Positions 1 through 24,252 of a stretch of DNA of 27,213 nucleotides are shown here, piece by piece. Source of the stretch: a virus. The translations under genes were made by a program, and so were the position numbers. Within the stretch, counting starts at the first letter, position 1; each line of letters begins with the position of its first letter. Where the stretch lies: the IMG/VR virus record IMGVR_UViG_3300044950_000219, positions 1 to 27,213 of that record. One strand, 5' to 3'. The notes below the pieces were generated by a model. The model saw only the letters and a program-made list of their open reading frames with translations, did not search any database and was not told where the DNA came from.

Positions 1-3000
1 CAGCCACTGTGGTTCTTGTTATTAAATTACCATTAGTCCCTGATACTCCTGTACCCACATTAGCTACTGTAGGATAGAATGTAAACAATTGACCAGTAAC
101 TTGTCCTGGACTAACTGGTAGTCCAACATTCATTGTCATCGAACCTGTTGCAGTTGTTAACTGAACCGCAGTAGTTTGACTTGTTAATGTACACGAACCT
201 GTCGCAGTTGTCAAAGGTACTGCACCACCATTAATTACACTAGAAATAGTAATTGTTGTACCAGAATCAACGCTTCTAATATAATATACTGTGCCGGGAT
301 CAATATCACCAAAAGTAGTACCAGTGAATGTAATTGGATCGTTTACATTTAATTCCAATGTTGAAGATACGGTAACTAAATTAGTAGTAGCAGTAGTAGC
401 TGTAACAGATAGTATTAACGGATCATCTTCAGTTGATATTGTAAATGTTTCATCATCAATAATTGTTATGATGTAATACGGTTCATTTTCAATGATACCA
501 CCAAATACATTTCCAACAAAATATACAGGTAGTCCAACATAGAATCCAGCAGTACCGGCAGTGCCAGTTGGCAATGTTGGGGTTGTTATAAAATTAGTTG
601 TTAGTGCGGTTGCTGTAACATCTAATATGCCAGGATATGCAATAGTGACAATAGCTGTATTAGTTACTTCACCTACATAACAAGATAGACCTGCAGGGTT
701 TATTGTTTCTGGTGTTAGTGTTACTGCACCTCCACCAATAGTTTCAGAAATAGTAAATCCACTATCTTCTATAATAGTAGGATCATCTAAGTTTGGCAGT
801 TTAACTAATGACTTAACATAATACGTTGTGTCATTAGATATACCGGTTGTTCCAATGGCGCCCACAAACTTGACTGGCATACCTACATAGAAGCCAATAG
901 TTGATCCGGATGCGTTTGGATCTACACTAGTAAATGATAATCTTATAACATTTGATACGTCTACTGTAGTTGTAGTCTCACTTACAGTACGAACAAACGA
1001 TGACCATGTAAGTACTTGGTCATTTGTGATATCTTGTATTTCAAATGTTGCACCTTGTGCGCTAGCTAAAATATTATCAACCGGTGGCTGAGTTTGTTCT
1101 AACGTAATTGAAGAACTAGCAATTCTAGTGCTATTGTTGAACAATCCTGCATAGAAACTACCATAGAAATTATTAGGTGCCCATTCAGTCACTTGAGAAT
1201 CGTATGTTGTTCTATCAAATCGTAATGTAATGATATTTTCTCTAATTGGCGTTGATGTTGATACACAACTTGCTCTAGCACTTACCGCAATCTTATTATT
1301 ACTTCCAGATCCAGTACTAATGAATACGACTCTATCACGGTCTTGTAATGCATTTGCATAACTAGTATACAATGCAACAACATAAAATGGAGTATTTTCT
1401 AATACTGCTAGATAATAATACTGACCATCATCTAATCCGCCAATTGCAGTTGTGTTATCACCTACATAATATAGTACCAAATCACCTGTCTGAACAAATT
1501 GTGTTTGCAGTGTAATTGTATTTGTTAGAACATCAACTTCTGTACTAGCAAACGTTACAATCTCACTAGGATCAATGCGAATTTCTGGCAATACCTGATA
1601 GCCTTCACCTGGATCAACTACATCAATTCGTAGAATTGTATCTAAGTTCATCACAGGTTGTAATATAGCCGCACGTCTTGGTGCTGGATATATAGTTGTA
1701 TCAATATACGCAGTGACTTTTGGTGGCTCTGAATAACCTCTACCACCGTTCAATAGTAATACAGGAGGCAAGTCAATTATAATTTGTTCGCCCGGAAGAT
1801 GATTTGTTATGGTAGTACCATTAACTCCACGAGTCAATCCACTCAATGTACTGTATGCTCTATCAACACTGCTGTATGCAATTTCTTCTGTACCAATTAG
1901 TATGACACCTGTAGTTGGAAAACCAAACACATTATCAACAACCATTGATATGCTGTTCAACGTCACATATGATATTAAGACAGTGATAGGATAATTATCT
2001 ACACCAGTGATACTTAAGCCTTGATTGTTGAACCAATTAATATATGGTTGAGTTTGCCAGATAGGATCTGTCGGTAAGTATTGATTTATACCACTTGGGT
2101 TAGCATAAACTAATTCAGGTGTAATATACTGTTGATACTGTGTATTATACTGTGCGGGCAAATCAAAATCTGTTATCTCACCTTCGTACACATCAGTACC
2201 GGTATATTTAAATAAGAAGTCTTTGATTACCACATGGAATGGTTTAGCTTCATTCAAATAGCCTGATAAGAATTCTTGGTTATCACTTTGGAATACTTCT
2301 AATGGTAACAATTCACGTATAGTGTGTGCAACATCGATGAACGATGTTTTGTTTAACCATGGTAGATAATTTTGACTCTCAATTGTTTCACTAACAATAT
2401 AATTGAACATTAAAATTAATGATTTATTTCTGAATAGTAATAAACTACTAGGTAATTCTTCATTTAAGGCACGAATAATAGAGCGTGTTTCTTCGCTTGG
2501 GAATGTATCATAAGGAGTAGTATCAAAGAAGTTATCTCCAAATCCTATTCGTGCTTCTGCGTAATCCCACAATGAACTACTAAACTGTATTGTACCATTT
2601 TGCAATCCAATACGAACCCATTCAATGCCATCAAACACATATGTTTCTTGTAGTCCGTCACCGTTTTTATTAACAGTAACAATTAGTCCAAGTTGAGCAT
2701 TGATTGGAGCTAAATCATAGTACGATTCTACTAGCATAGCAGACTTGGTATTATCATTGTAACCAGGCGCCCACCAGTTAATCAATTCCCAATAGTCTTG
2801 TGTATTGTAGAATAATTCTGGTGCACCAGGCCAATTTGGATTGCCTACTGTAGACGGGTTGATTGCACCTTCTGTGAATAAGAATTTCAAACTGCTTGTT
2901 TCAGCTAATGGATACTGTGCTAACACAGTGTTATAGAATTGCAAATAGTTTTCTAATGCTTTAAATCTATTATAGAAGAAACTTTGACGAGGGCGTACTA

Positions 3001-6000
3001 ATATACCACTTTGTACTGGTTTTGGTAAGAATGGATCAGGAACAACAGCACCGGTTTGATTGACACCGCTGAAACTTTCAAGCATTCTGTTATACAATGA
3101 TTCTGGTACTACTGTATCACCTATGCCAGGTAGTCCTGGTAAGAAGTCATCAGCATAATTAGAACGTATTAAACTATAAACACTATGCGAAACATCGTCA
3201 TTTGTACCAGTAGCAAATCCAATGTGTAGTGCTGTATCCGTTGCATTGATATTACTACCGCAATTGTATAAACCAAATACATTTGGTTGTATTGCTGCCA
3301 TAAATGAAATGCCAGTAGACAATGGTGTAGCAATATATGATTCACATATTGTGTCTGATAATGTTTTTCCTATTTGAGTAAACACAATGTTTGTATTTCT
3401 TACCCAATAGTAATACACAGGTACAAGAGAGCCTGTGCTATTCAATCTATATTCAATTGCATAGTCATCAATGCTACGAGGTGTACCTGGTCCTTGATAT
3501 GCAATTGGTTCTACATCACTGGTAACCCAGCTATATACTTTAACATCACTACCCGGGAATACTCTACCCCACCATTTACTATTGTAAACAACATCATCAC
3601 TTTGATGATAGTTTACAAATCGTGTAGTACTTGTGTCGAACCACAACTTACCCAATTGTCCTGAACCCCATACTGTAGAACCTTTATTCGTTGCATCAGG
3701 ACTATTGTAATTTGCAGGGTCACTATTAGATACTACATCTAAATTCTCACGCACTGCACCTAATATTTTGCCTTGTAATGGATCAATGTAATCCAAATTG
3801 TCTAATGTATTGTTAGTTGAGATACTATATAACTGAACATTTTGTATAGCGTCTGTATCAACAATTGGTGCAGAATTACGATATACTGTCCAATCAGCTT
3901 CACCTACACTATTGTTATAAATTACTACTTGACCATTATCATAGCCAGGTCTAAAGTTAGGTGTACCAATGATAACGCTGTTATTATTAAAATCTAACGC
4001 TGTACCATAATATGGTTGACTGCCATAATCTTCATTCAATGCATTAACGCTCTGAGCATAAACATACGCACCAGAATTGTTTACATTTTCATTGTAGACT
4101 GGCAAGTAATCATACATATATACTGCGCCTGCATTAACAAAACTATCTACAAACTGTGTTGTATTGTTATCAAACAATGTATCATTGTCATAGTTTTCGT
4201 CATCGCTTGCATCAAACGTTGTTTCTGCGTAACGTGCTGATACTGGCGAACTTACTACAAATGAACCACTTGAATTAAATTTAATAGTAGAACCAAATTG
4301 TGTTCTACCTTGACTATGCGGGTCATTAATTAATTGCGTTTGTGTATATAACTGAATGCCTAATTGGTCTAATACGTCAGCATCTAAAACTGATACTGTT
4401 AACTTAGCATTAATATATGCCAAATCTATACTGATAACTTGTATAGTTAAAATATTATTTGAAGCAGATGCAGTAACGTTTGTGATGTTTGCAGAAGTAA
4501 TAGCATTGGCAGCTGCCGTTGCATTTCCTACAGGAATATTTACAGCATAACCATTTACTAATATTGTAGTAGCCGAAGTTACGTTGCACTCAGTAGTGCC
4601 GGTAACTATACCATAACTACTACCGCCATATGTATAACGATAAACAGCACCTTCAGCATTTTGACTGTTAATTTCAAACGGTGCACCAATTAATAATTCG
4701 TTTGCATAATTGTCTACGTCTAAGCTATAACCAAAATTTGTTCCAACTTCAGGATTAGCATCAACCGATGTAAATTCCTGTGTTAATACAAATTCAGAAC
4801 CACTTACATTAATGATATCACCTGCAGTCAATGATTGATAAACATTGATATTTGATCCAACGACACCATATTCGTTATCATCAATTAGTGTTCCATTAAC
4901 GCTTACAAAGATTGGTTCAGTTTGTTGAACAGCGGTCATTGAACCAGTATCAGTAATTAATTGTAATGTTGAGCCACCGCGTTCAGTAGATACTGTAAAT
5001 GTAGTTCCTGATGGTTTAGCTAATACATAATAAACTGTGTTTAGTGATACTCCACCAAATACAGTGCCAGTAAACACGATAGGATCACCAACTGTTAAAA
5101 CAGAACTGTCAGTGCAGGTAAAGCGGTCAGTACCTGCATTGGTATCAGTTATAGCGTTACTCGTTGCTGTACTTAATGTAGTTGTAGTTGGTGTAAATAT
5201 CAAACTAAATGTTTGTGGGACAAACGGTGAACTATTATACGGTGCCTCAAACGTTTGTACTAATCTTTCAAATGAATAAGCCGTACCTAAATCAGCAACA
5301 ACGGTATCATTTTCTGGCGCACTAACAGCTATAATGTTACCATAATAGTTTGTGGCAATAGAATAACCAAAACTATCACCTGCACTTAATCCGGCAACTG
5401 TGATTGTTTCAGAGAATTCATATAAATCAGTTAAAGCAGATTTACGATATACATACACTAAATTCTGTTCATATGCAGAGATGTATAACCAGTTTTGGTC
5501 ACCGGACATTGCAATAGACGAGCCCCAGTTAGTTACTGAATCATCATCTGGTGATTCAATGACCTGATATTCTTGCAATTCATTAAGTAAGTTATTAATT
5601 ACTAAATCGTAAATATAAACTTTTCTGTCAGTATAGGCTGCCCCTGTCGGCTGTGAAATTACAAACAAGTTATCTACATATTCAATTGTTGAACCAAAAG
5701 ATGCACTCTCATTAATTGTTTGTACAATACTATACGTATCAAAAACAGCGTTATAACTATAGCGATATGCGACACCGGCAGTAGCATCAGTTATCAAATA
5801 TCCTAAATTACTTGTTTGTGCAACCGCACTACCATATGTTGACGACCCTGTTTTTAATAGTTCATCAGTATAGATATAGTTTAAACTCTTACGATATACA
5901 GCCCAAGAGCCATCATCATTTTCATCAACCCAAACTTTATTCTTTACAAATTCACTATCAAGTAAAGGTAAGTTATTAATATCACTTGGGGTAGCTACAC

Positions 6001-9000
6001 GCTGAGATGAGAATTTCATTGCGATGCCTTGACCAGTGATTGTTGTCAGTGCTGGCGATAAGCTTAACGCAATAGTTACTCTAAATGGGTCCACTACAGT
6101 TGCGACAATTCTATAACCATTAATGTTGGTATTAAAATTAATAACAGCAAATGGTTGATATTTTGTTAAGTTGTGCGGTGTTGCAAACTGCAATGTAACA
6201 GTTCCATTTAAGTTATTAATAGCACCCACTACTTGTCCAGCACTTGTTGGAGTATATACTTGCCAAGTGCTATTGTAATCAGCTAACCATACATATTCAT
6301 TTACATATAGTTGTGACAACGGAGTTGTTGCAGTATTCAATCCATTGTAATAGTATGACGAAATTTTAACATCATTAAAATTAGCATAACCTGCATCCGG
6401 AAACACTCTATTTGGTGTATATGACGGTACAGTTGGTAATACGTTTGCATTGTTTATGGGCCTACCATAATTGAAAACTGAGTACAGAGGTACTTCTTGT
6501 TCTACACCATCAGTATATACGCCAGTAGTAAGTCCAACAATAGATGGGTTACTTGTCAATTGATTTTGATTCAATCGGAAGTCAACAAAGTTATTGTTTA
6601 ATACACCACCAAATTCACCGGTCTTAATAGCCCAGTTATCATATACATCATAATCAATACCACCTTGTGGTAAGTTCAATCCCTTGAAACTATTTGTTGC
6701 AATGCTTGTACCTTTTTCTTTAATAAGGTTTTTATAAACATTAACCTGTGTTATGTCTGTCAAATCTGCTAGTGCTAAATAATCACGTGGGCGATATCCA
6801 ATCAATGACCAGCTTAGTAAATCACTATCTTGGTCTAAATTAGTTTTGTTTGTATCATAAAACAATGTTGCTTCATATGAACGTGTTGAACTGTTAGGTA
6901 GTAATCCCTTCTGAATCTCATTGTAATCTGTTTCTTTCCAATATTGTTCTTCAAATATTTCTTTCGCATTTAATACTTGTAATGCAAACCAATATCTGTT
7001 TTTATACTTAACAATACTGCCTCTAGTATACTTTTGATTAGTACTCCATTCTTCAATGTTATCTTGATTAAGAATAAAGCCTTGAGCATCAATAGTACCA
7101 TTCCAATCAGCAGACTTTGTACCTCTTGTTAAGATACGATTTTGTCTTAATCCGGTTGTTAAATTATATAACACATCATTGAACACGGTAACATTATCAA
7201 ACACAATACCGTGTTCAAAGTTACTAATGTTAAACTGCCCATAGGCAACAGTATCACCTTCATTTAATGGTGTTGCGCTAAAGAATGTGCTGTCACGTGT
7301 TACAGATAAATCAGTGCTTTGTATTGGATAGAAGTTTTGATTTAAGATAAAGTTTTGTCTTTGTAGAGTTAATGGTTGAACTACGTAGCTATCTTTATTG
7401 ATAGTAATCAAATTAGCGGCTGGGTTTAAGTTAACTAAACTTCCTGTTTCCCATCCACTCTGTGCCCAGTATAATAATTCTGTAACCATTTGACGCCAAT
7501 TAACATCTATACCAGATTCTATTTGGTCAAACAATACACCCTGTGTTAATAAATATCTTCCATAGCTAGCTATGAATTGACTTAATGATTGTAAATCAAC
7601 AAACTCAGTTCCATAAGGAACTATATTAGTTTTGTTGTCAGTATAATCATTTGCTAATTGAACTGATAAATTACCCACTGTAACTTTATTATAGTTTCCA
7701 TTAATCTTAGGAGTTACTGTAGTAAAGTATGCAGTATCTTGTGAGTTACCAAATACTTTCCAACCTGCACTTGTACTTTGTACGACAACACCGCTATAAA
7801 TTATCGTAGTAATAGGTATGTTATCATATAACACCACACTATAACTTTCGTCAGGGATTAACAATGATGCATTTCTACTGTTTGGTGTACCTTTTTCAAC
7901 ATAGAAACCAAGCAAACTCTTATCACTAAATCCTGCTAATCTATAAATTAATCTTACGTCTAAATTATCAAATAAGTCTGTGATATTTTGTGTGGCGTTA
8001 ACACCAACTTGCTTTTCATAATCAACAATCCAGTTAACGTAACTAGTTTTAGGAGTACCAGAACCATATATAGCAACATCACTAATCACCAAGTGACTAC
8101 GATTATTAACTAGATATTGATTAAACTCTGTACTAAATTTATAATTGTCTACATCAAACCCTAAGTTAAAGAATTGTGCAGGTTTAGTAAGGGCAAGAAT
8201 CTTCATTAAATCAAAAGGCCAGCTACTACTTCTACGATATGAGAATTCAGCTGGTCCTACATCGCCAACAGCCCAGTCATTTTTAAATGTTCTGAAATTA
8301 TAATTACCCATCACCGCATCAAACGGTGACAATAAATTGCCAGCACTGTCTACTGGAATAACACTTAATAGTTCTTCTCTAATGAACTCAGGTAATACAA
8401 CTGGATTACCGTTGTTCCAATTAATACCGGCTGCCATATCTCCCCATAATACTAAGTTATCACTTGTGTATGGGGCGGCGCCGTATCTATCAGTCCACCA
8501 AGTTGGCTGATTTGTAAAACCAATCATTTCCCATGGTGATGTATTTGGAGTGCTGGTATCATAGAAGTACTCATATATACCTCTCCAGAATCCTTGTTGT
8601 ATTGGTTCTCCATTTACCCTATTACCTGACTGTGTGTAGTTGTAACTAAACTGGTTGTTGGCTTGATAGAATTGTTTTTTATATTCAATACGATTCTGAC
8701 CAACCCAATTTAAGAAATACTGACTATATATTTGCAATACTTCATCATACGAGTAATTAGTTGTCCTAAAGAATCCAGGAATAACATCATATTCAGTAAC
8801 AGGAACAATATCTGTTAATTTAAGATTATTATAAACACGTGTTTCAAATTCTAATAATGCCTGGTCTCTAAAATCAACTAAATTACCATTAATATACTCA
8901 CCGTACAATTTAGTATATGATCCGTCGTGTCCTTGAATGAAATATGTAGGTTGAGAATAGTTACTATCTAATACGACACCAGGAATAAATGACGGATACA

Positions 9001-12000
9001 GTCCTAATTTAGTAGGCGTGTTTGGAACATAACTTCCAAATGTTTGATTGTATTCTTTAATCGTTACAACATCACCCGGGGCTAAATCTTTTGTAATAGT
9101 TAATGATGGACTATCTGTGCTTACCGTATAATCTTGATTAGTAATTAATTGTTGGGTTGATGTAAAGTTATTAACTGTTGTGGTTAAGTAGACCAATACA
9201 CCATAATAATTTGCAGTATCAAAATTGTAAATTCTTGTTAAAGGATATATACTTGTGTCTAATGAGTTAGCAAAAGTATATGTATTAGTAGCATATGCCG
9301 CTTTACTTGGCAACATATCACTCCAGAAGAAAGGTTCTGATTCAGTTTTGTTTTGTGTAATTTGATCCAGTGCATCATCTAAAATAGTTGCAGGTGGTTG
9401 ATATATATTATATTCAGTTCTATCTATTGTGTAAACTAACAATGCTCTGAAATTAATATACTGTTGACTATTATACTGCAAAGAGTTAATAAGATTATTA
9501 TTTTGTGACCTTAATAATGACCCAGGTAATGCTAAACTTGCACTATTTTGAATTATCTTAGTACCCCATGGCACAAGATTACCCAAGTCTCTATAGTTGT
9601 TTGAACCAAAAACGTTACCGGTTGTGTTTGGGTTGTTATAGAAAATGCTTTGATATTGACCGCGAATATCACCTACGTTAACAACAGATACATCATCATT
9701 GAACGGATTGTTTTGTAAGTTGATAGGTATTTGATAGTATGCAGTTGGACTTACTTGGTCACTTAATAATGTTATCTCAACTACTGTATCAACAAATAGA
9801 TCAGGAACAGTAAAATTAACAACTGTAGAATTGTCTGTAATAGTAAAAGTATAAGTTGATGTATCTTGTAATACGTTATTAACATAAACTTGAATATTAG
9901 GCCATACTGTATTTGTTGCGGCAGCTATATCACAGGTATATGTACTTACGCCACTGCCACCAATATAGTCAAAACTAAAGATTTGATATTGACGACTTTC
10001 TGCAACAGCAGTTTGCCATCCTAATTGTCTAACAACGGTTGTTCCAGAGGTGTAATTGTATACATAACCTGTATTAACTTTTTGTGTAATTGGATTAGTA
10101 CCACTTACATAATTAAATGTTTCACTGTTTAATGGTACGTCAAAGCTAATGTCACCTACGTTATTAACTGCGCTATAACGTAGTGGGAACCCTAGTACAA
10201 TATCTTTAATTCCAGAACCAATTCCATAACTGAATAATTTATTGCCAGCAAATGATGTACCTACATACACATCGGTGTCACCAAAGCTAATGCCATCATT
10301 GTCAAAAATATCAAAGTATGGTGCTTGATTAACTGTTGTTTTTTGTTGTGCTATTAACCATTCGATACCATCAAAGTAAAAATCTTTACCTTCGTTATTA
10401 TATCCCTTAAATGCAAATGTACATTCTAATGGCAATACTAATCCATTTTCTGCTTCTGTAAGTGTAATGAGTTGTGTACCGTTTCCTTGTATATCAGAAA
10501 ATCTTACAACATATATTTTGTTTCTAACATTTTCGTTTGTGTCAACAGAAAACACAATTCTTGCACCATCATATAATTCATAGTTATCGTTTGATATATC
10601 ATTTGCCACTAATGATGAATTGGGTGTAGTTGAAATTGTTGTAGAATCATCCCAAGTAACAGTAAGTGTTAATGTAGTTGTACCAGTAATAGTAGTAATT
10701 TGAGTATTTCTAGGTAGAACATTTGTGGTGTCACTTATGTATTGTCCAACCTGAAACGTGCCGGTAACATCTGATGCGGCAATAGTAATTGTTGTACTTG
10801 TTCCAGTTACTCCATTAATAGTTGCAGTATAATCAGTATATACCTCAACGTCTGGCCAATAGTTTTCTTGACCAGCTACAAGCGTAAATGCATCAGTTGT
10901 TCTATCATCAAAGAAGTCAATTGGATCTTTGCCAATGACACCATTATTAAATAACCTTAAGTTAGGATAAAACTCAATGATTGGACGTTTAGCTTTATTG
11001 TCCTGTGTTGCATATATTGTTGCAATACTAGGATCATTATTGTATGTTGCAGTAGAATTAATAACATCAATGTGGAACCAACGATTACTACGTGACCATG
11101 CATTTTTATCTATGCTGTTTCGTGCAATCGTAATATAATCTTGATACACAGGGATGTATAGTGTGCTGTCATAGTTACCAATATCATATGGTAGTGAGTC
11201 ATACGGGGTATATGTACCTTCAGTGAAAGGTTCCGGGGTAATAAGGTCTGCAACATTTATTAATTCAATTGCTGTACCAACACCTTCTACATAATATTCA
11301 CCTTCTTTATAACTTGTGGGGAAAATATCTCCACTGAAACTTACTTTTAGACCATTGGTAAACACAACACCATTGGGACTTGTATATTGCTGTTGACCTA
11401 ATATTTGAGTAATATCTATTTGATTAGTTGAATTGCTTTCAATCAATCTAATGATACCAACCTTGTTAGCACTTGTACCATCTTGGTAATATAATGTATC
11501 TAAAATAGCACTTAAATAAGGAACAATATTAATAGAGCCAACTGTATTACGATAAAAGTTTCTTGCTTTCCATTGTGTACCGTAGCTAGCTGTAATTTTT
11601 TGACCAATTGGTATAGCAGTTGATGGAACTAAACGTAATACAGGATCATCCACTGAACCTTCATACGTTATAGTATAGAAAGTAGAATAGATATCTGTAT
11701 AGAATCCACCTTCGTAGTTATTAAAATCTGATGTTGTGCCTGGGACTACATATGGATCATTACCACCATCTTCGTCATAAGTTGTTGTATCATAAAACTT
11801 AGAAACATATCCAGTTAAAGCTTTTGCTATACCTGTTCCAGTACCAACAGTGGCTGCAATAAAACTATCACCTATCGCATATGTAACACTGCTTGTTCCC
11901 GCAATAGTATTCCATTCTGTTTGTGTTGTAGTACCCAAATCTGTAATAGTGTACGTAGTTCCTACTACAAATGATCCAGCTACTACAATGAAGGGGCTAC

Positions 12001-12886
12001 CAGTGTTATAGAACATAACACTACGACCTTCAAGTCCTGTCACTCCATCGATACTACCAATCGTACTTAATAGTTGTCCATTAACTTGGTCAAATGGCAA
12101 CGTAGATACAACATCTACTAAATTGTTACCAGGGAAGTTATACTCGTCTTGTGCATTCTTATAAGGTACAGTGAATATTACAACACCCGCAGTTGCACCA
12201 TTATTCTCTACACCTAATACATCACGTGTTTGTATGTTTGGTTGTTGCGGATCATATCCAGTAATACCCGGCTTACCTTGAATCCAGAATTCAGTTGGCT
12301 GGTTTACAGTAAATGTATATGTACCACCACGAATCAATGTTAATGTAGGATTGGTTGTCCCTGCTGGGTTAACGTCACTGGATATATTATATCCATTAGG
12401 TAAACTTTGAACAGTATAATCTGTTGCATTATAAACAATATCTGTAGAAATATTAACAGATGGTGCACCGGTTGGCAACCAATAGTATTGATTAAAGTTA
12501 ATTATTTTATCTAAGTTAGTAAAGCTATCCCAAGAATAAAATTCGCTGTTAAACAATCTATCATTGTTATCTGTCAATGCACCTTCTAATTTTAATGCAT
12601 CTATGATACCGGGATAACTAATAAAATCTTTTGCAGTGCTTGTATTTGTTTTTGTGAATACAACACCCGGATCTAACTGATAGTCTCTACGAACTTTAGT
12701 AGGTTCAACTACATAATTATCTTTGGCATTAATTCCATAACCAAATTTACTACCAATATACCCCTCGATTCTCATCGTATTGGGTTGGTCAACGATTTGA
12801 TCCAGCGTTGCACCTAAAAATTGACTATTAGTAGGTGTTTGGAATATCTCTGGTAAAAAATTTAGTGTTCTAATTCGTGCTGCCAT
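1..12886 (-). CDS. Giant modular virion/baseplate-associated structural protein (partial, C-terminus off the left edge)
   Basis: The ORF starts at ATG 12886-12884, with a GAGAG ribosome site (12892-12896) five bases upstream. It stays open to base 2, giving at least 4,295 codons. My translation gives MAARIRTLNFLPEIFQ at the N-terminus, followed by features I remember from large structural proteins of aquatic T4-like phages (no search run). Modules in order: N-terminal conserved part (~1-175); cupredoxin-like segment (~180-246); a GTTYTIT-type beta module (~301-354); long Tyr/Asn/Trp-rich conserved region (~355-1940); carbohydrate-binding-like motif (~1945-1988); region with GYRPRDYLALADLTD; FG-GAP-type beta-propeller (~2346-2993); LSGLTRG module (~3635-3700); GGRGY/GEGY repeats (~3710-3770); and beta modules with a YY(I/V) core near the edge. 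It lies directly after gp6, the position of gp7/gp8 in T4, so a peripheral baseplate or fibre-like role is inferred. It is about four times T4 gp7 in length, and I cannot show homology to gp7. Confidence 0.85.
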   Translation of the reverse strand, partial: MAARIRTLNFLPEIFQTPTNSQFLGATLDQIVDQPNTMRIEGYIGSKFGYGINAKDNYVVEPTKVRRDYQLDPGVVFTKTNTSTAKDFISYPGIIDALKLEGALTDNNDRLFNSEFYSWDSFTNLDKIINFNQYYWLPTGAPSVNISTDIVYNATDYTVQSLPNGYNISSDVNPAGTTNPTLTLIRGGTYTFTVNQPTEFWIQGKPGITGYDPQQPNIQTRDVLGVENNGATAGVVIFTVPYKNAQDEYNFPGNNLVDVVSTLPFDQVNGQLLSTIGSIDGVTGLEGRSVMFYNTGSPFIVVAGSFVVGTTYTITDLGTTTQTEWNTIAGTSSVTYAIGDSFIAATVGTGTGIAKALTGYVSKFYDTTTYDEDGGNDPYVVPGTTSDFNNYEGGFYTDIYSTFYTITYEGSVDDPVLRLVPSTAIPIGQKITASYGTQWKARNFYRNTVGSINIVPYLSAILDTLYYQDGTSANKVGIIRLIESNSTNQIDITQILGQQQYTSPNGVVFTNGLKVSFSGDIFPTSYKEGEYYVEGVGTAIELINVADLITPEPFTEGTYTPYDSLPYDIGNYDSTLYIPVYQDYITIARNSIDKNAWSRSNRWFHIDVINSTATYNNDPSIATIYATQDNKAKRPIIEFYPNLRLFNNGVIGKDPIDFFDDRTTDAFTLVAGQENYWPDVEVYTDYTATINGVTGTSTTITIAASDVTGTFQVGQYISDTTNVLPRNTQITTITGTTTLTLTVTWDDSTTISTTPNSSLVANDISNDNYELYDGARIVFSVDTNENVRNKIYVVRFSDIQGNGTQLITLTEAENGLVLPLECTFAFKGYNNEGKDFYFDGIEWLIAQQKTTVNQAPYFDIFDNDGISFGDTDVYVGTSFAGNKLFSYGIGSGIKDIVLGFPLRYSAVNNVGDISFDVPLNSETFNYVSGTNPITQKVNTGYVYNYTSGTTVVRQLGWQTAVAESRQYQIFSFDYIGGSGVSTYTCDIAAATNTVWPNIQVYVNNVLQDTSTYTFTITDNSTVVNFTVPDLFVDTVVEITLLSDQVSPTAYYQIPINLQNNPFNDDVSVVNVGDIRGQYQSIFYNNPNTTGNVFGSNNYRDLGNLVPWGTKIIQNSASLALPGSLLRSQNNNLINSLQYNSQQYINFRALLVYTIDRTEYNIYQPPATILDDALDQITQNKTESEPFFWSDMLPSKAAYATNTYTFANSLDTSIYPLTRIYNFDTANYYGVLVYLTTTVNNFTSTQQLITNQDYTVSTDSPSLTITKDLAPGDVVTIKEYNQTFGSYVPNTPTKLGLYPSFIPGVVLDSNYSQPTYFIQGHDGSYTKLYGEYINGNLVDFRDQALLEFETRVYNNLKLTDIVPVTEYDVIPGFFRTTNYSYDEVLQIYSQYFLNWVGQNRIEYKKQFYQANNQFSYNYTQSGNRVNGEPIQQGFWRGIYEYFYDTSTPNTSPWEMIGFTNQPTWWTDRYGAAPYTSDNLVLWGDMAAGINWNNGNPVVLPEFIREELLSVIPVDSAGNLLSPFDAVMGNYNFRTFKNDWAVGDVGPAEFSYRRSSSWPFDLMKILALTKPAQFFNLGFDVDNYKFSTEFNQYLVNNRSHLVISDVAIYGSGTPKTSYVNWIVDYEKQVGVNATQNITDLFDNLDVRLIYRLAGFSDKSLLGFYVEKGTPNSRNASLLIPDESYSVVLYDNIPITTIIYSGVVVQSTSAGWKVFGNSQDTAYFTTVTPKINGNYNKVTVGNLSVQLANDYTDNKTNIVPYGTEFVDLQSLSQFIASYGRYLLTQGVLFDQIESGIDVNWRQMVTELLYWAQSGWETGSLVNLNPAANLITINKDSYVVQPLTLQRQNFILNQNFYPIQSTDLSVTRDSTFFSATPLNEGDTVAYGQFNISNFEHGIVFDNVTVFNDVLYNLTTGLRQNRILTRGTKSADWNGTIDAQGFILNQDNIEEWSTNQKYTRGSIVKYKNRYWFALQVLNAKEIFEEQYWKETDYNEIQKGLLPNSSTRSYEATLFYDTNKTNLDQDSDLLSWSLIGYRPRDYLALADLTDITQVNVYKNLIKEKGTSIATNSFKGLNLPQGGIDYDVYDNWAIKTGEFGGVLNNNFVDFRLNQNQLTSNPSIVGLTTGVYTDGVEQEVPLYSVFNYGRPINNANVLPTVPSYTPNRVFPDAGYANFNDVKISSYYYNGLNTATTPLSQLYVNEYVWLADYNSTWQVYTPTSAGQVVGAINNLNGTVTLQFATPHNLTKYQPFAVINFNTNINGYRIVATVVDPFRVTIALSLSPALTTITGQGIAMKFSSQRVATPSDINNLPLLDSEFVKNKVWVDENDDGSWAVYRKSLNYIYTDELLKTGSSTYGSAVAQTSNLGYLITDATAGVAYRYSYNAVFDTYSIVQTINESASFGSTIEYVDNLFVISQPTGAAYTDRKVYIYDLVINNLLNELQEYQVIESPDDDSVTNWGSSIAMSGDQNWLYISAYEQNLVYVYRKSALTDLYEFSETITVAGLSAGDSFGYSIATNYYGNIIAVSAPENDTVVADLGTAYSFERLVQTFEAPYNSSPFVPQTFSLIFTPTTTTLSTATSNAITDTNAGTDRFTCTDSSVLTVGDPIVFTGTVFGGVSLNTVYYVLAKPSGTTFTVSTERGGSTLQLITDTGSMTAVQQTEPIFVSVNGTLIDDNEYGVVGSNINVYQSLTAGDIINVSGSEFVLTQEFTSVDANPEVGTNFGYSLDVDNYANELLIGAPFEINSQNAEGAVYRYTYGGSSYGIVTGTTECNVTSATTILVNGYAVNIPVGNATAAANAITSANITNVTASASNNILTIQVISIDLAYINAKLTVSVLDADVLDQLGIQLYTQTQLINDPHSQGRTQFGSTIKFNSSGSFVVSSPVSARYAETTFDASDDENYDNDTLFDNNTTQFVDSFVNAGAVYMYDYLPVYNENVNNSGAYVYAQSVNALNEDYGSQPYYGTALDFNNNSVIIGTPNFRPGYDNGQVVIYNNSVGEADWTVYRNSAPIVDTDAIQNVQLYSISTNNTLDNLDYIDPLQGKILGAVRENLDVVSNSDPANYNSPDATNKGSTVWGSGQLGKLWFDTSTTRFVNYHQSDDVVYNSKWWGRVFPGSDVKVYSWVTSDVEPIAYQGPGTPRSIDDYAIEYRLNSTGSLVPVYYYWVRNTNIVFTQIGKTLSDTICESYIATPLSTGISFMAAIQPNVFGLYNCGSNINATDTALHIGFATGTNDDVSHSVYSLIRSNYADDFLPGLPGIGDTVVPESLYNRMLESFSGVNQTGAVVPDPFLPKPVQSGILVRPRQSFFYNRFKALENYLQFYNTVLAQYPLAETSSLKFLFTEGAINPSTVGNPNWPGAPELFYNTQDYWELINWWAPGYNDNTKSAMLVESYYDLAPINAQLGLIVTVNKNGDGLQETYVFDGIEWVRIGLQNGTIQFSSSLWDYAEARIGFGDNFFDTTPYDTFPSEETRSIIRALNEELPSSLLLFRNKSLILMFNYIVSETIESQNYLPWLNKTSFIDVAHTIRELLPLEVFQSDNQEFLSGYLNEAKPFHVVIKDFLFKYTGTDVYEGEITDFDLPAQYNTQYQQYITPELVYANPSGINQYLPTDPIWQTQPYINWFNNQGLSITGVDNYPITVLISYVTLNSISMVVDNVFGFPTTGVILIGTEEIAYSSVDRAYSTLSGLTRGVNGTTITNHLPGEQIIIDLPPVLLLNGGRGYSEPPKVTAYIDTTIYPAPRRAAILQPVMNLDTILRIDVVDPGEGYQVLPEIRIDPSEIVTFASTEVDVLTNTITLQTQFVQTGDLVLYYVGDNTTAIGGLDDGQYYYLAVLENTPFYVVALYTSYANALQDRDRVVFISTGSGSNNKIAVSARASCVSTSTPIRENIITLRFDRTTYDSQVTEWAPNNFYGSFYAGLFNNSTRIASSSITLEQTQPPVDNILASAQGATFEIQDITNDQVLTWSSFVRTVSETTTTVDVSNVIRLSFTSVDPNASGSTIGFYVGMPVKFVGAIGTTGISNDTTYYVKSLVKLPNLDDPTIIEDSGFTISETIGGGAVTLTPETINPAGLSCYVGEVTNTAIVTIAYPGILDVTATALTTNFITTPTLPTGTAGTAGFYVGLPVYFVGNVFGGIIENEPYYIITIIDDETFTISTEDDPLILSVTATTATTNLVTVSSTLELNVNDPITFTGTTFGDIDPGTVYYIRSVDSGTTITISSVINGGAVPLTTATGSCTLTSQTTAVQLTTATGSMTMNVGLPVSPGQVTGQLFTFYPTVANVGTGVSGTNGNLITRTTVA
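60..890 (-). repeat. Degenerate beta-module repeats with a YY(I/V) core near the open end of the giant protein
   Basis: Copies occur at about 720-890 (GMPVKFVG ... TYYVKSL ... GFTISETIGGGAVTLT), 405-540 (GLPVYFVGNVFGG ... PYYIITI ... TFTISTED) and 190-350 (NDPITFTGTTFGDI ... VYYIRSV ... TITISSVINGG). A further copy sits away from this cluster at about 4930-5095 (GDPIVFTGTVFGGV ... VYYVLAK ... TFTVSTERGG). The shared frame is P(I/V)xFxG-xFGG(I/V)-xxxYY(I/V)-x(6-8)-(F/I)T(I/V)S-xxGG-xxLTxxTGSxT. The array seems to continue past the window edge. I know such modules from virion proteins of aquatic phages; no function is established to my knowledge. Confidence 0.6.
141..214 (-). repeat. Short direct repeat encoding TTATGS(M/C)T
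   Basis: Bases 141-160 and 195-214 match at 18 of 20 positions and are 54 bases (18 codons) apart, so the repeat keeps the reading frame. The encoded peptides are TTATGSMTM and TTATGSCTL. This looks like recent in-frame duplication or recombination at the end of one YY(I/V) module. Confidence 0.6.
3910..5850 (-). repeat. Seven FG-GAP-type blades (predicted beta-propeller) in the giant protein
   Basis: Between residues ~2346 and ~2993 I count seven repeats of a blade with a (F/Y/W)G(S/Y/T)(S/A/T)(I/L/V) opening strand, a hydrophobic strand often ending in (G/S)(A/T/S)P, and a closing (V/A)Y(R/V/I)Y strand. Opening strands lie near 5848 (TYGSAVA), 5705 (SFGSTIE), 5530 (NWGSSIA), 5378 (SFGYSIA), 4742 (NFGYSLD), 4298 (QFGSTIK) and 4017 (YYGTALD). 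The best blade is the fifth: NFGYSLDVDN, LLIGAPF, GAVYRYTY. Similar WxVYRxS strands occur just before the first blade and just after the last (DGSWAVYRKS, EADWTVYRNS). Seven FG-GAP blades is the size of an integrin-alpha-type propeller. The calcium loop DxDxDG of classical FG-GAP repeats is not conserved. Blades 1-4 are ~50 residues apart; blades 4-5, 5-6 and 6-7 are spread by insertions. Confidence 0.6.
4340..4620 (-). other. Flagellin-hook-IN-like module inserted between propeller blades 5 and 6
   Basis: Between blades 5 and 6 the giant protein reads ATTILVNGYAVNIPVGNATA, then AANAITSANITNVTASASNN and ILTIQV. The order (strand with NG, hydrophobic strand, helix with repeated Ala/Ile/Asn, then GVTASxSNxxLTI) resembles the flagellin hook IN motif seen in flagellar hook-associated proteins and many phage tail proteins. 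I infer an independently folding surface insert. Recognition is by pattern only. Confidence 0.4.
6925..7055 (-). other. Carbohydrate-binding-like (CBM5/12-type) aromatic motif in the giant protein
   Basis: Residues ~1945-1988 read EEWSTNQKYTRGSIVKYKNR followed by YWFALQ and, after a short loop, EEQYWKETD. The order W-x(5)-Y-x-x-G-x-x-V-x-Y-x-x-x-Y-W-x-A ... W is that of small chitin/cellulose-binding domains (CBM5/12), in which aromatic residues stack on sugar rings. In phage tails such modules can help adhesion to glycans. The conserved stretch continues into GLLPNSSTR and GYRPRDYLALADLTD, so the motif could also be an integral part of a larger phage-specific domain rather than a true CBM. 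Confidence 0.4.
12150..12348 (-). other. Cupredoxin-like segment in the giant protein
   Basis: Around residues 180-246 of the giant protein the translation reads LTLIRGGTYTFTVNQPTEFW, then a Gly/Pro/Asn-rich loop, then GVVIFTVP. This strand-loop-strand pattern (RGxTYxFxV ... GxxxFTVP) is one I know from cupredoxin-like beta-sandwich modules repeated in phage structural proteins. The His and Cys ligands of a copper site are not evident, so a purely structural or binding role is more likely. The assignment rests on pattern only. Confidence 0.45.
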
Positions 12887-12903: not shown

Positions 12904-12911
12904 TATATATA
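12904..12911 (-). promoter_or_regulatory. Candidate T4-type late promoter for the giant gene (weak)
   Basis: The sequence TATATATA lies 17 bases upstream of the ATG at 12886 and matches the T4 late -10 consensus TATAAATA at 7 of 8 positions. Its distance to the start codon matches those of the other late boxes in the window. It is a self-complementary AT run and therefore weaker evidence than the ATAAATA boxes. Confidence 0.35.
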
Positions 12912-12912
12912 C

Positions 12913-15900
12913 TTATCTTATTTGTAATTGCACTGGAGTTAAAGCCGCAATCACTACTACATCACTTGCAGTTGCACCATTTACAAAAATCTCAAAGGGT
13001 GCTGATTTAATTTCATACAAGTCACCAAATGACATTGTAGGATCATTTGGTACAAGTACCACTGAACTTACAAGATCACCTAGTTGTGCGTGTAAATATG
13101 CACTTAATTCTGAGAAGTAGAAGGTGTCTCCAAAACTCCAGTTGTTAATATTGAAATAACTATTCATTGCAGACAATACTGCACTACGTATTTCGCTATC
13201 ACTTGCATTGGTTGCTTGTGATTTGATTACTTTAACTGTACCTTGCAATTGTGTAGCTGATTTTGTTCCAAACAACGGGACAAAGCGAACACTATTTGGC
13301 ACAACGCTATCAGTTAACATTTTGTAGTCATCTAAATTACCATACGCCTGTTGTAATTCATTGATTGTAGGTACGTCTGGTTTTAGTACAGTTCCAGTAG
13401 TATCTTGTATCCAATTTTGATATGCAGTATAATATGCCTGTGTTACCAAATACAAATCAATAATGTTTGTAGTTGCAGGATCAATACGTGTTGTATTGTT
13501 ACTGTTATGTCTATATTGATACAATATTGCTTGTCTTCCTGGCTGCATACTATATTGTGGTTGTTCAACTACTATGTAATAGGGAGTTGTTACACTTGTA
13601 TCCTGAACTGTTGTATAAAATACATTATCACTGTATGCATAGAATATTTGTCCCAAAGGATATTCATATTTAATTACTTCAATGTTTGTTAATGTTGGGT
13701 ACTGATATATCACATCGCTTGTGGCAATTAATTGGTAACGTGATAAATTAACAGCATCTTCAATCAATTCAAAGAATGTATAGATGCCTGTATTACTAGA
13801 ACCAGTTACATAACCGGTTACTGTTTGAAAGAAGTCAGGATCAACCACAATTTCATTATTGTTTATGTCTATACTTGCGACTTCAACTTCAAAATCATTT
13901 ACATAGCCATCACTCTCAACAGTCTGTCCAATTACATTCATTTGTACAGGTCTTGATAGTGGTGCATTACTATTTGGTTGAGTATTTGAAGGTAATACTT
14001 TAACGAAATCAGCTAATATTTTACCTGTAAATGGATCATATACTAGTTTACCACTCTCATACCAGAATCGTGTATCAGCAACACTACCAAAGTAATAACG
14101 CAATGATTTGTACGCAATTTGATATCTGTTGTTACCTACACTGTTAAAGTTTACAAACCAACCAGTTGCGTTATATGCATCAATACTCCAACGGTCTTGT
14201 GTAATCAATAATGAGTTGTTAAATATCAAACTGAAGCTTTGATTTAATTCCATTCTGATAACACATTCATTAATCACTGCTGTGGGAAGTGTGTTACCAA
14301 ATGATGGTATAACCTGTGTGATAATTGCTCCAGTTGGAATATATCCGTTTAGTGTAACTGGACCTGAGCCGTTGCTGAAATTACCTTCACCGTTATTATA
14401 ACCATCACCGATAACATTTAATACAGTAGTCCAATAGAACGTTGTATCACTTGCACTTGCAATGCCATAAACTAATCGATTGTTGTTATCAAAGTACGAA
14501 CCAGTTGGCGCAGTAACTTTAATTAATGCACTCTTGGTTACATACTTCATATTATGTGTATTGTACGTTCCAGTTGCTATAGGTGTGTTTGCTGAACCAT
14601 CAATGTTATAAAAATAACCAGTGATACTATTTGCATCAGTTGTGCTTGTGTTCCAATATACAGTGCCATCACCTGACGCAGTGTTAATGTTATAGCGTAG
14701 ATAATTTTGTAGATAATATTGTCTTGCTCTATTATCAGCTAACGCTAATGCTAAGTTGTCAGTTAAGAACTTAATAATATCGCCAGTGTTAGTTATAGTC
14801 AATAACAAATTACCGTTATCACTATTTTGATATAATCCACCATCACTTGCAAATGAATTCGTGCTGGAGTATTTTCCTGTAGGATCAAGTAGGTCTAAGT
14901 TTTTAGACACGCCAATAGAACTGCGATTAATAGCGGCACTTTTAATAATTGAACTGTATAATGTATATGGGAAATTTGTATAATCTTCACCATTAACCAT
15001 TCTGTTCTGAGTATAATATCTTGCAGGAGCACGTAGTTTAATGTTTGCTAATGTTTCTCTGGCTTGCGCTGTTGAAGCTGGTGTTTGTAATGCTAATCCT
15101 ATAGTGAGTGCTTCTGTTCGTCCTGCTCTGCTAATATACTGTATTGTTACTTGAATCCCCTGCATTTCAGTTGGATCAATAGTATATGTCAATGCATTAC
15201 CGCCACGTACATATGCTCTAAATGCTCCAACTGGTGCTTCGGAAAATACTCCATCACCGAAAGTATAACTAACTTGGTCGTTGAATCTGGATACAACTGA
15301 AAACACTTTCTTAAAACTAGTTTCAGTTTGTAAATTAGCATTTGCATATACACTGTCTACCAATCTCCAAAGTGTTCTACCACCATTGCTAGCACTTAAT
15401 TGATATAACCAAGTATCGGTGTTGTTGACACCTTGAATATCAATATCAACTACCTGATTACTAATTTGTTGTTCTAAGTTAAAATCATAACTCTGCAATG
15501 TTCCTTGCTTAAAATAAAAGAAGAAACCTGTATTTGGACTACCGTAACCCAATTTATCGTTACGATACATCATATTCATTTTACCACTTGGTGCAGGTGG
15601 AATCTCATATACATAATCTTCATCTAAACTAGTTGCACTAACTAATTCAAAATTCATATTGACAGTATCTACTGTGCTAGTAAATGGTACAATAGGTAAA
15701 CTGGCAGGAGGAATGTTAATACTGTATTCATCTGTCTTTACACCAAGTAATTCTTGACTATTACCGGGGCGACCAACACGCTGGGTATTAATCAATGTAG
15801 CATTAATAACTGTGTTAAATTGTTCTAACCAGTTAGCATTTGCAGGATCATTCCATAATATTGTTTGATTGCTTAAGTTCAATCCATTAACGTCAGTAAT

Positions 15901-16284
15901 GTTTTCAGTGGTACTGATGTTTGTAACTTTAAGATAACCTTGACCTGCAATATTACGTTTAGGATTATAGCTTACTAAGTTAGCTAGTTTAATAACACTA
16001 TCTCTACGTTCAGCCGTATCAATAAAGTTCTCACGTGTGTTTAAGTCGTTGCGGAAAGCAAGACCTTGTCCCATAAACGCAATAACATCAAGTAGTGCAA
16101 TAAATTCACTAGACTCAATGTAATCGTTAAACGTTTCCGGATAGTATACTCGCAGATAATCGATGAAACTCTTACGTAGGGTTTCATAATCGTAGCTTTT
16201 AAAATCTGCTTCACGAAAGGTTTGATAGATGGCCTGCCAATTTTGCACACCAAATATTGCTGATTGTCTTGAACTTGTAGCCAT
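12913..16284 (-). CDS. 6: Baseplate wedge protein gp6
   Basis: This is a 1,123-residue wedge subunit. gp6 forms the inner ring of the T4-type baseplate and joins wedges around the hub during sheath contraction. The N-terminal block (about 30-112) has the clear gp6 pattern: YDYETLRKSFIDYL, YPETFNDYIESSEFIALLDV, LNTRENFIDTAERRDSVIKL and VSYNPKRN. A Baseplate_J-like core follows at about 335-440, with VSYTFGDGVFSEAPVGAF, the AGRTEALT strand, then ANIKLRAPARYYTQNRMVNG-EDYTNF. The product is much longer than T4 gp6 (660 residues, from memory); the extra length lies in the C-terminal half and is beta-rich. The ATG at 16284 has GAG-rich sequence (AAAGAGAA) upstream. The next gene, the giant ORF, starts 26 bases after its stop. 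Confidence 0.95.
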   Translation of the reverse strand: MATSSRQSAIFGVQNWQAIYQTFREADFKSYDYETLRKSFIDYLRVYYPETFNDYIESSEFIALLDVIAFMGQGLAFRNDLNTRENFIDTAERRDSVIKLANLVSYNPKRNIAGQGYLKVTNISTTENITDVNGLNLSNQTILWNDPANANWLEQFNTVINATLINTQRVGRPGNSQELLGVKTDEYSINIPPASLPIVPFTSTVDTVNMNFELVSATSLDEDYVYEIPPAPSGKMNMMYRNDKLGYGSPNTGFFFYFKQGTLQSYDFNLEQQISNQVVDIDIQGVNNTDTWLYQLSASNGGRTLWRLVDSVYANANLQTETSFKKVFSVVSRFNDQVSYTFGDGVFSEAPVGAFRAYVRGGNALTYTIDPTEMQGIQVTIQYISRAGRTEALTIGLALQTPASTAQARETLANIKLRAPARYYTQNRMVNGEDYTNFPYTLYSSIIKSAAINRSSIGVSKNLDLLDPTGKYSSTNSFASDGGLYQNSDNGNLLLTITNTGDIIKFLTDNLALALADNRARQYYLQNYLRYNINTASGDGTVYWNTSTTDANSITGYFYNIDGSANTPIATGTYNTHNMKYVTKSALIKVTAPTGSYFDNNNRLVYGIASASDTTFYWTTVLNVIGDGYNNGEGNFSNGSGPVTLNGYIPTGAIITQVIPSFGNTLPTAVINECVIRMELNQSFSLIFNNSLLITQDRWSIDAYNATGWFVNFNSVGNNRYQIAYKSLRYYFGSVADTRFWYESGKLVYDPFTGKILADFVKVLPSNTQPNSNAPLSRPVQMNVIGQTVESDGYVNDFEVEVASIDINNNEIVVDPDFFQTVTGYVTGSSNTGIYTFFELIEDAVNLSRYQLIATSDVIYQYPTLTNIEVIKYEYPLGQIFYAYSDNVFYTTVQDTSVTTPYYIVVEQPQYSMQPGRQAILYQYRHNSNNTTRIDPATTNIIDLYLVTQAYYTAYQNWIQDTTGTVLKPDVPTINELQQAYGNLDDYKMLTDSVVPNSVRFVPLFGTKSATQLQGTVKVIKSQATNASDSEIRSAVLSAMNSYFNINNWSFGDTFYFSELSAYLHAQLGDLVSSVVLVPNDPTMSFGDLYEIKSAPFEIFVNGATASDVVVIAALTPVQLQIR

Positions 16285-16332: not shown

Positions 16333-16782
16333 TTATTGTAATGTAGCTGTATTTGTCAAGCTATTAAAGAAAACATTCAATACTTCAGCATTATTGAAGG
16401 GTGCAATAGCTAATTCTACTTCAAGTAGTATACCGTTTTCTTGTGGATAACTCTTTACTGTATTGATAATCAATCTAGGATCACCATTAGCAATCCTGCG
16501 AATTTCATCTTCAAGTCTAAATTGAGTTTGTGCATCATTGGGCTCAAAAACAAAGCTCCAAATAGTAGAACCATATCCTGGATTTCCAACTTTTTGTCCT
16601 TGTTGAATGTTTAATGCATTAACAAAGTCTCTGACTACTAATGCTTCATCTACAAGACGATACTTTTTACCCGGGACTGTTGGTTTTAGTACACCACCTG
16701 TACCCCCATCAACACCCGGACTAGCATCAGTTGTCTTTGGCTCGTTAGCCCCAATTGTTGAAAATCCTATATATGTTGGCAT
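16333..16782 (-). CDS. 25: Baseplate wedge protein gp25
   Basis: This is a 149-residue member of the gp25/GPW family, the sheath-initiating wedge protein shared by contractile tails and type VI secretion (TssE). It has a typical length for the family, with a Gly/Pro/Thr-rich lead of ~38 residues. The core has ALVVRDFVNALNIQQGQKVG (47-66), PGYGSTIWSFVFEPND (68-83), and the helix/strand EIRRIANGDPRLIINTV (93-109), whose GDPR corresponds to the conserved (E/D)PR signature that contacts sheath and gp6. It starts at ATG 16782 with AGGAT six bases upstream. It sits between gp5 and gp6, as in related phages. Confidence 0.92.
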   Translation of the reverse strand: MPTYIGFSTIGANEPKTTDASPGVDGGTGGVLKPTVPGKKYRLVDEALVVRDFVNALNIQQGQKVGNPGYGSTIWSFVFEPNDAQTQFRLEDEIRRIANGDPRLIINTVKSYPQENGILLEVELAIAPFNNAEVLNVFFNSLTNTATLQ

Positions 16783-16798
16783 TTTTTATCCTATACAA

Positions 16799-16806
16799 TA
16801 TTTATG
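16799..16806 (-). promoter_or_regulatory. Late promoter box CATAAATA for gp25, overlapping the gp5 stop codon
   Basis: On the minus strand CATAAATA lies 16 bases before the gp25 ATG and matches TATAAATA at 7 of 8 positions. The last codon and TAA stop of gp5 (16802-16804) are embedded in the box, so promoter and gene end share bases. An AGGAT ribosome site lies between box and start. Confidence 0.6.
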
Positions 16807-22639: not shown

Positions 22640-22951
22640 TTATATACCCAATACTTGTATCAGTGTAGAATTCTCTGGGAGGTAAATTGATGTACCTGCA
22701 GTAAAGTCAAAGAATGGATCTGCTAATGTGTTTGGGTTTCTACTAGCAAACACCCACCATAATCTAGGATTTGCATATAAGTCATATGCAAGCATATCAG
22801 GTCGTAGATTATATGTTGTTGTGATTTCCCAATATCTATCGCTACCTAATTTAGGAATAGGTCTATCAACTAACGTATCTAAAAATCTACCATTGACTAC
22901 GCCTGTTGCAAAGTAAGGACTTGATGCTGGATATAATGCATTATTAGACAT
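22640..22951 (-). CDS. 53: Baseplate wedge protein gp53
   Basis: 103 residues from ATG 22951; a TTG six bases upstream could extend it by two codons. I chose the ATG because it overlaps the preceding stop as TAATG, a classic coupling arrangement. The gp53 signature is clear: RYWEITTTYNLRPDMLAYDL (39-58), ANPRLWWVFASRNPN (60-74), DPFFDFTAG (78-86) and the strand SIYLP. This LysM-like fold binds between wedge components in T4-type baseplates. It is about half the length of T4 gp53 (196 residues, from memory), matching the compact forms I know from aquatic phages. Stop TAA abuts the hub ATG. Confidence 0.85.
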   Translation of the reverse strand: MSNNALYPASSPYFATGVVNGRFLDTLVDRPIPKLGSDRYWEITTTYNLRPDMLAYDLYANPRLWWVFASRNPNTLADPFFDFTAGTSIYLPENSTLIQVLGI

Positions 22952-24244: not shown

Positions 24245-24252
24245 TATTTATC
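24245..24252 (-). promoter_or_regulatory. Late promoter box GATAAATA for the leftward baseplate cluster
   Basis: On the minus strand GATAAATA lies 22 bases upstream of the ATG at 24222, followed by TAAGTAAGGATAACAAC carrying the ribosome site. It matches TATAAATA at 7 of 8 positions and is identical to the box in front of gp6. It is the likely start of a transcript covering the gp48-like gene, gp53, the hub gene and gp5. Confidence 0.6.

Follow-up and report, generated by a model that had tools for sequence, protein, structure and literature searches.

The minus-strand gene described here is a single real gene of a virion protein family that lies directly after gp6 in a baseplate cluster and has grown by modules on a conserved core. 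We consider it probable that its product is a giant baseplate-cluster protein of jumbo phages, about 6,000 aa long, that has replaced T4 gp7 as the wedge partner of gp25 and gp6. The window, as we call the whole stretch that was analysed, is a 27,213-bp IMG/VR fragment record whose left edge is only the end of the contig. Within it, the first 4,295 codons of the giant gene occupy positions 2..12886 on the minus strand, an assignment based on the ORF, a profile match and dN/dS, and the stop codon lies beyond the contig.

The earlier note had claimed a frame without a stop from the ATG at 12886 to base 2, taking up nearly half of the window. Both the ORF list and the translation agree with this, as the minus-strand ORF 12886..2 starts with ATG, runs for 4,295 codons without a stop, is open at its 3' end and makes up 47% of the window. 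The frame is not open by chance, since each of the other five frames holds 228-586 stops over the same stretch (294 and 586 in the other two minus-strand frames and 299, 228 and 395 in the three plus-strand frames). Compared with the nearest long relative, G003, the giant showed a dN of 0.044 and a dS of 0.53, and across nine bins of at most 500 codons dN/dS always lay within 0.03-0.15. Five pairs were compared in all, and the per-bin values were 0.05-0.20 against G001, G004 and G002 and 0.09-0.34 against G017. These data show that the frame is a single real gene under purifying selection along its length and not an artefact. A megablast search with positions 1-25000 of the window gave no match among phage records.

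Extension of the contig leftward, proposed in the same note as a way to find the stop, was made by way of relatives. A scan with the giant's last 500 residues gave 69 loci; 19 records were searched, all of which matched, and the neighbouring DNA of 18 was read, the one left out (G015) having the same frame length (6,268) and match identity as G007. One complete giant ORF of 5,702-7,756 aa was present in all 18 of these longer contigs, in DNA without N. Module offsets in four of the relatives (G001, G002, G003 and G004) place 1,663-2,188 residues beyond the window edge, from which the full length of the window's giant would be about 5,960-6,480 aa. Directly after the giant, all 18 contigs carry an ORF of 206-212 aa, which in G003 matches phrog_11259 (unknown function). 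Parts of the giant's last 500 residues recur in shorter ORFs (344-1,291 codons) of the same genomes in G001, G002, G006-G009, G011 and G012, and the modules of this region seem to be shared between genes.

In PHROGs, the giant matched phrog_10938, annotated as virion structural protein, over five stretches (E 3.2e-253). This family is common. A tblastn search with residues 1300-2100 matched 60 phage records, 54 of them covering at least 80% of the query and all at less than 60% identity; the matches include RaK2-like and PA5oct-like phages, Atu_ph07, Phosso, SCTP-2, a Vibrio phage, XacN1 and two Stenotrophomonas phages. The pattern PWEM[LFI]GF gave at least 599 matches in IMG/VR, with a relative encoded in 598 of 599 stretches. 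By record coordinates, the family genes encode 3,138 aa in RAS14, 3,313 in XacN1, 3,326 in RaK2 (ORF070w), 3,332 in XaC1, 3,333 in PBECO4, 3,340 in CBB (CBB_236), 3,342 in Munch, 3,771 in Vibrio phage 2.275.O, 3,807 in SCTP-2 (gp140), 3,857 in PA5oct (gp355), 4,449 in Atu_ph07 (AUZ94962.1) and 4,555 in Phosso. The window's giant is thus a very long member, at the long end of the family.

Virion proteomes of related phages, which the earlier note had named as a place to look for the product, do contain relatives of it, as both CBB_236 and PA5oct gp355 are reported by mass spectrometry. CBB_236, which in its record is the giant following CBB_237 (baseplate wedge), was found in CBB virions with 21 unique peptides and 7.72% coverage, according to the CBB paper (PMC5259590); these peptides place the protein in the virion and not at a site within it. 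PA5oct gp355 carries the record note ESI-MS/MS. Passages of the Atu_ph07 paper (PMC6102473) list gp181 and gp182 under baseplate, and the order of accessions suggests that gp181 is the giant. A text search for ORF070 in the available part of the RaK2 paper (PMC3622015) gave nothing. Our searches turned up no paper on what a phrog_10938 giant does or how it is built in the open-access literature, where the passages seen on the giant say nothing beyond "structural" or "baseplate", and those on AP-J-162 (with a 4,455-aa structural protein) and on moraphage add no function. Family, size and virion presence are already on record. What we did not find in the literature is the size range of this clade, the number of its modules, the cupredoxin-like domain with its split and the leads at the N-terminus described below.

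The giant is the last gene of a minus-strand cluster that runs from a 423-aa structural gene through gp53, an 870-aa structural gene, gp5, gp25 and gp6. The 423-aa protein (22951..24222) belongs to phrog_12050 and the 870-aa protein (20027..22639) to phrog_11190. Between them lies a gp53-like baseplate wedge protein of 105 aa (22640..22957; phrog_7145, E 1.7e-24; phrog_232, the T4 gp53 family, E 3.6e-4), and they are followed by a gp5-like hub protein of 1,069 aa with an OB domain (16802..20011). The gp25-like baseplate wedge protein of 149 aa (16333..16782; phrog_261, E 7.7e-10; phrog_43, E 1.6e-6) we take, from its position, to be gp25. The gp6-like baseplate wedge protein (12913..16284; phrog_10646, E 1.4e-254; phrog_219, E 1.3e-16) has 1,123 aa, compared with 660 in T4, and its ORF ends 26 nt before the giant's start.

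That the giant follows gp6, where T4 has gp7, had been stated from the window alone, and this arrangement extends well beyond it. Of 167 distinct environmental giants that have 3.6 kb or more of upstream sequence, 165 are directly preceded by a gp6 ORF when a clean four-member profile is used, and in all 18 long relatives an upstream ORF of 1,117-1,135 aa matched a four-member gp6 profile. Among the isolates, a gp6-profile match lies upstream of the giant in Phosso, XaC1, Munch, PBECO4, CBB, XacN1, RAS14 and Vibrio phage 2.275.O, and gp6 is also directly upstream in Atu_ph07, PA5oct and RaK2. In SCTP-2, the gene before the giant (gp141) has no gp6 match, and gp6 lies elsewhere, near position 231305 of the record. 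This preceding SCTP-2 gene encodes 3,096 aa without gp6 similarity (L005 8609-17899), and an ORF of 243-262 aa separates gp6 from the giant at L230 6543-7271 and L253 6339-7124, which were exceptions before duplicates were removed.

Just upstream of the giant, ATAAGTAT within AAGATAAGTA (12909..12916, minus strand) is a possible late promoter element. On the minus strand, ATAARTA words at 24251, 16805, 16308 and 12916 each stop 15-22 nt short of a gene start, namely that of the 423-aa gene, gp25, gp6 and the giant, respectively. Four of the five minus-strand matches lie near gene starts, compared with none of the three plus-strand matches near a plus-strand start, and ATAARTA was present upstream of the giant in all 15 of the 18 long relatives that were inspected. 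The T4 late promoter consensus is TATAAATA (PMC5587285), and judged by this motif the ATAARTA words may be late promoters. The window also encodes a gp55-like late sigma factor.

The earlier note had pictured beta modules set on a conserved N-terminal part. The beta modules are present, but the core is not confined to the N-terminus, as the segments common to the isolates are spread over residues of about 1-120, 500-1200, 1300-2150 and 3000-3560, and are separated and followed by parts specific to the clade. The segment at 500-1200 (9287..11389, minus strand) was delimited by comparison with isolates and by a model of residues 1-1190; that at 1300-2150 (6437..8989, minus strand) carries the PWEM[LFI]GF motif; and the C-terminal one at 3000-3560 (2207..3889, minus strand) has helices near its end in a model of residues 2960-3660. 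All three core slices were present in 66 of 66 distinct complete environmental ORFs. Mean pLDDT was 86 for the predicted structure of residues 1-1190 (101 sequences) and 82 for that of residues 2960-3660 (114 sequences).

A beta module of 79 aa, found by HMM search, occurs in four copies at residues 3782-4237 (176..1543, minus strand) and twice more at residues 497-554 and 2579-2655, which makes six in the window. The 18 long relatives carry 13-21 copies each. The domain accretion suggested earlier is borne out to the extent that length rises with module number (Spearman 0.78 in the 18 long relatives); the value of 0.91 over all 26 comes partly from the zeros of the isolates. By these comparisons of sequence, the longer members are built by extra beta modules on a shared, scattered core. 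Further modules, at residues 3634-3793 (1508..1987, minus strand), are common with the giant gp7 of cyanophages (hhalign, E 6e-6 to 1.8e-4).

Other parts of the chain resemble known folds to varying degrees. VIA on the model identified a cupredoxin-like fold at residues 151-484 (11435..12436, minus strand), split by a variable insertion at about 270-400, with a Z of 10.4 and an rmsd of 1.8 over 93 residues against rusticyanin (2cal). The usual copper ligands are mostly absent, and copper binding is unlikely here because only 9 of the 101 rows have C in the cysteine ligand column and 65 have D, the window having no C. Six FG-GAP-like repeats, recognised with a pattern of our own, span residues of about 2397-2990 (3917..5698, minus strand) with a 79-aa module inserted; Pfam FG-GAP_2 scored just below threshold in the giant (E 1.7e-4, 22.1 bits where the cut-off is 23), and this region is probably a beta-propeller. 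A chitin-binding type 3 match (CBM_5_12) at residues 1946-1970 (6977..7051, minus strand) was also sub-threshold, with an E of 0.026 and 15 bits against a cut-off of 26.2. Residues 3377-3434 (2585..2758, minus strand) weakly resemble the trimerisation domains of tailspikes and collagen XVIII (the six best chains had VIA Z scores of 4.2-5.2), and such an element would be easier to reconcile with a trimer than with a single copy in each wedge.

Searches with the whole giant returned nothing from NCBIfam, nothing from PDB sequences at E 1 and only two sub-threshold matches from Pfam. Foldseek with slices 1-1190 and 2960-3660 gave no PDB match at E ≤0.001, and none of the PDB structure matches listed for these two slices is a wedge protein, although large models can hide a domain. 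In BFVD, slice 2960-3660 had 16 matches at E ≤0.001, among them an Atu_ph07 structural protein.

Whether the giant takes the place of gp7, gp8 and gp10 together had been raised in the earlier note, and the profile comparisons do not support all three being inside it. Against nine T4 tail families, with five master sequences each, no comparison of the giant reached an E below 0.045, and the positive control, jumbo gp6 against T4 gp6, gave 1.1e-4 (hhalign). No profile match to T4 gp7 was found (E 0.32 or worse, hhalign), nor one to the gp8 body (E 0.15 or worse, five master sequences), and the best gp10 comparison had an E of 0.045 over 40 columns, with no gp10 body found. The gp6 profile matched all 15 records tested. 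The T4 gp7 profile matched T4 alone of the 15, and it also matched one of 14 unrelated control genomes; among the window's genes and eight genes downstream of the giant in G003, no PHROGs match belonged to the gp7 family, a search in which a diverged gp7 could be missed. The gp8-type profile phrog_438 matched T4 and the Atu_ph07 giant, the latter through a central stretch matched seven times, and it found no separate gp8 in ten of ten long relatives, RaK2, PA5oct or SCTP-2, where a diverged gp8 may be missed. The gp10 profile phrog_958, which also matches T4 gp9 in addition to T4 gp10, matched 12 of the 15 records and in none of the 14 non-T4 records fell inside a giant. An ORF outside the giant that resembles gp10 was found in PA5oct, where gp358 matches by its C-terminus (E 2e-17), and not in RaK2, Atu_ph07 or SCTP-2, in which the profile had no match. 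All ten long relatives tested have ORFs outside the giant with an N-terminal motif common to the gp10 profile and T4 gp9, and these ORFs may be gp9-like rather than gp10-like. Its position and the lack of another gp7 match suggest that the giant replaces gp7.

The N-terminus offers a further lead. Residues 1-60 (12707..12886, minus strand) form an LPxxF(R/Q)T...F...YIG element, which the model shows as having short helices. In column shuffles, the N-termini of T4 gp6 and T4 gp8 each beat 150 of 150 shuffles against the giant's N-terminus. With jumbo gp6, 80 of 150 shuffles scored as high, the profile in that case holding one non-gp6 row (SCTP-2 gp141), and scores were also not above chance for cyanophage gp7 (25 and 115 of 150), gp10 (140), gp53 (96) and gp5 (37). 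The N-terminal window was then ranked among 212 overlapping windows. With a deeper alignment of 122 rows for the N-terminus, it ranked first for gp8 (E 0.0011, 20% probability), third for gp6 and 22nd for cyanophage gp7. With one alignment of 27 rows for all windows, it ranked first for T4 gp6 (E 6.8e-4, 27% probability) and first for gp8 only by a near tie (16.7 against 16.6, E 0.011). These resemblances were picked after several targets had been tried, gp8 having entered as a control, one of eight. The giant's N-terminus thus weakly resembles those of T4 gp6 and gp8, and which of them ranks first depends on the alignment. Passages on phage XM1 (PMC10457771) describe an N-terminal helix-turn-helix common to its gp7 counterpart and its gp6 counterpart, so a gp6-like element of this kind would suit a wedge partner.

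A place for the giant in the gp7 slot is consistent with the family match, the gp6 gene upstream, the virion relatives, the absence of a gp7 profile match elsewhere, the kept core, the growth by modules, the cyanophage giants in the same slot and the N-terminal resemblance to gp6. It has against it that no gp7 profile matches the giant, that the gp6 resemblance is weak and fails with jumbo gp6, that no wedge protein appeared among the structure matches and that gp6 lies apart from the giant in SCTP-2. The same absence of gp7 similarity, together with the beta modules, the tailspike-like element and the SCTP-2 arrangement, would be expected of a protein that is only a peripheral arm or a holder of fibres, the gp7 role falling to another unrecognised protein or to gp6, which at 1,123 aa is much enlarged over the 660 of T4. 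However, a gp6 gene directly precedes nearly every distinct environmental giant (165 of 167), the core is kept in one ORF in all 66 complete genes, and the PHROGs matches of the window and of the eight G003 genes include no gp7 family, even if a diverged gp7 could escape them. We regard a purely peripheral arm as possible and somewhat doubtful.

A fusion carrying gp8-type and gp7-type parts in one chain could account for the first rank of gp8 at the N-terminal 60 columns in the deeper alignment and for the lack of a separate gp8 by phrog_438. The lead of gp8, however, shrank to a near tie once the alignment was uniform, gp8 was one of eight targets and served as a control, and no gp8 body was detected, with profiles that may miss a diverged one; such a fusion appears very unlikely. 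An assembly chimera or a mis-joined contig might be suspected in a single fragment record with a gene open at its edge, but complete ORFs from 18 other contigs could be aligned with the giant over its length and purifying selection was found in every bin, so that this explanation is scarcely credible.

If the giant does stand in the place of T4 gp7, it would join gp25 and gp6 as their partner in the baseplate wedge, perhaps with one copy per wedge and six per virion. Its scattered core would form the wedge and outer baseplate. The parts that project outward would be the propeller, the cupredoxin-like domain with its split, the element resembling tailspikes and strings of 79-aa modules, and they could hold fibres and touch the cell surface, relaying the signal that triggers sheath contraction. 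As members lengthen by gaining modules, reach and adhesive surface could change without alteration of the wedge. According to passages of PMC10457771, the 242-residue gp7 counterpart of phage XM1 takes part in forming the bundle and also binds the tail spikes; by analogy, the giant would do both tasks on a far larger scale.

The giant is one of the longest genes in the phages compared, and a common core and a modular growth that can be tested are seen in 66 distinct complete genes from the environment and in 18 longer ones. They raise the question of how the gp6 wedge is completed if gp7 is not to be found, and they bear on how phages enlarge the surfaces that contact the host and on very long proteins in bacterial viruses. 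A broader proposal, which we hold to be unlikely, is that throughout a clade of jumbo phages one polypeptide of about 6,000-7,700 aa has taken over from individual wedge proteins (from gp7, to judge by position, and perhaps from gp8) and makes up much of the outer baseplate, that in cyanophages a different protein became the giant in this slot and that the gene adjacent to gp6 is a hot spot for independent giants.

Cyanophages do carry giants after gp6, namely a 3,045-aa "structural protein" in S-CAM3 and a 4,225-aa "baseplate wedge initiator" in ACG-2014f; in P-RSM3, a 7,312-aa giant after gp6 (L387 5152-27090) is labelled "similar to gp7". According to passages of PMC7029224, pelagi- and cyanomyophages lack T4 gp7, which VrlC appears to replace. 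The S-CAM3 and ACG-2014f proteins that occupy the place of VrlC, identified by position and, in S-CAM3, by the label "virulence-associated structural protein", gave no match above chance. Profiles of ACG-2014e and P-RSM3 matched T4 gp7 three times, with E values of 6.7e-4 (27%, T4 residues 702-900), 1.8e-6 (90%, over 30 columns only) and 1.1e-4 (57%, T4 663-830), which modestly links the cyanophage giant gp7 to T4 gp7. The window's giant had no match to the N-terminal core of cyanophage gp7 (E 0.13 or worse for the N-terminal slices), and a RaK2-based profile had none at all to the cyanophage giant gp7. Because the window's giant matches neither T4 gp7 nor the cyanophage core, we recognise two giant families that occupy one slot and between which no shared core was detected.

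Compared with known systems, T4 gp7 (1,032 aa) shares with the giant its gene position after gp6 and differs in being about six times shorter and without detectable sequence-profile similarity. T4 gp8 and gp6 resemble the giant weakly over about 40 N-terminal columns, the rest of either protein being unmatched. The cyanophage giant gp7 has the slot after gp25-gp6, the gigantic size and the modules at residues 3634-3793 in common with the window's giant; unlike the latter, it matches T4 gp7 modestly by profile, and it is followed by a separate wedge gene in both S-CAM3 and ACG-2014f, gp8 in the latter. The phrog_10938 isolates are like the window's giant in their core segments, their single ORF and, SCTP-2 excepted, their slot after gp6. 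None of the eight isolates compared has the 79-aa modules, whereas the window's clade carries them and, at 5,702-7,756 aa in 18 relatives, is longer than the isolates of its family.
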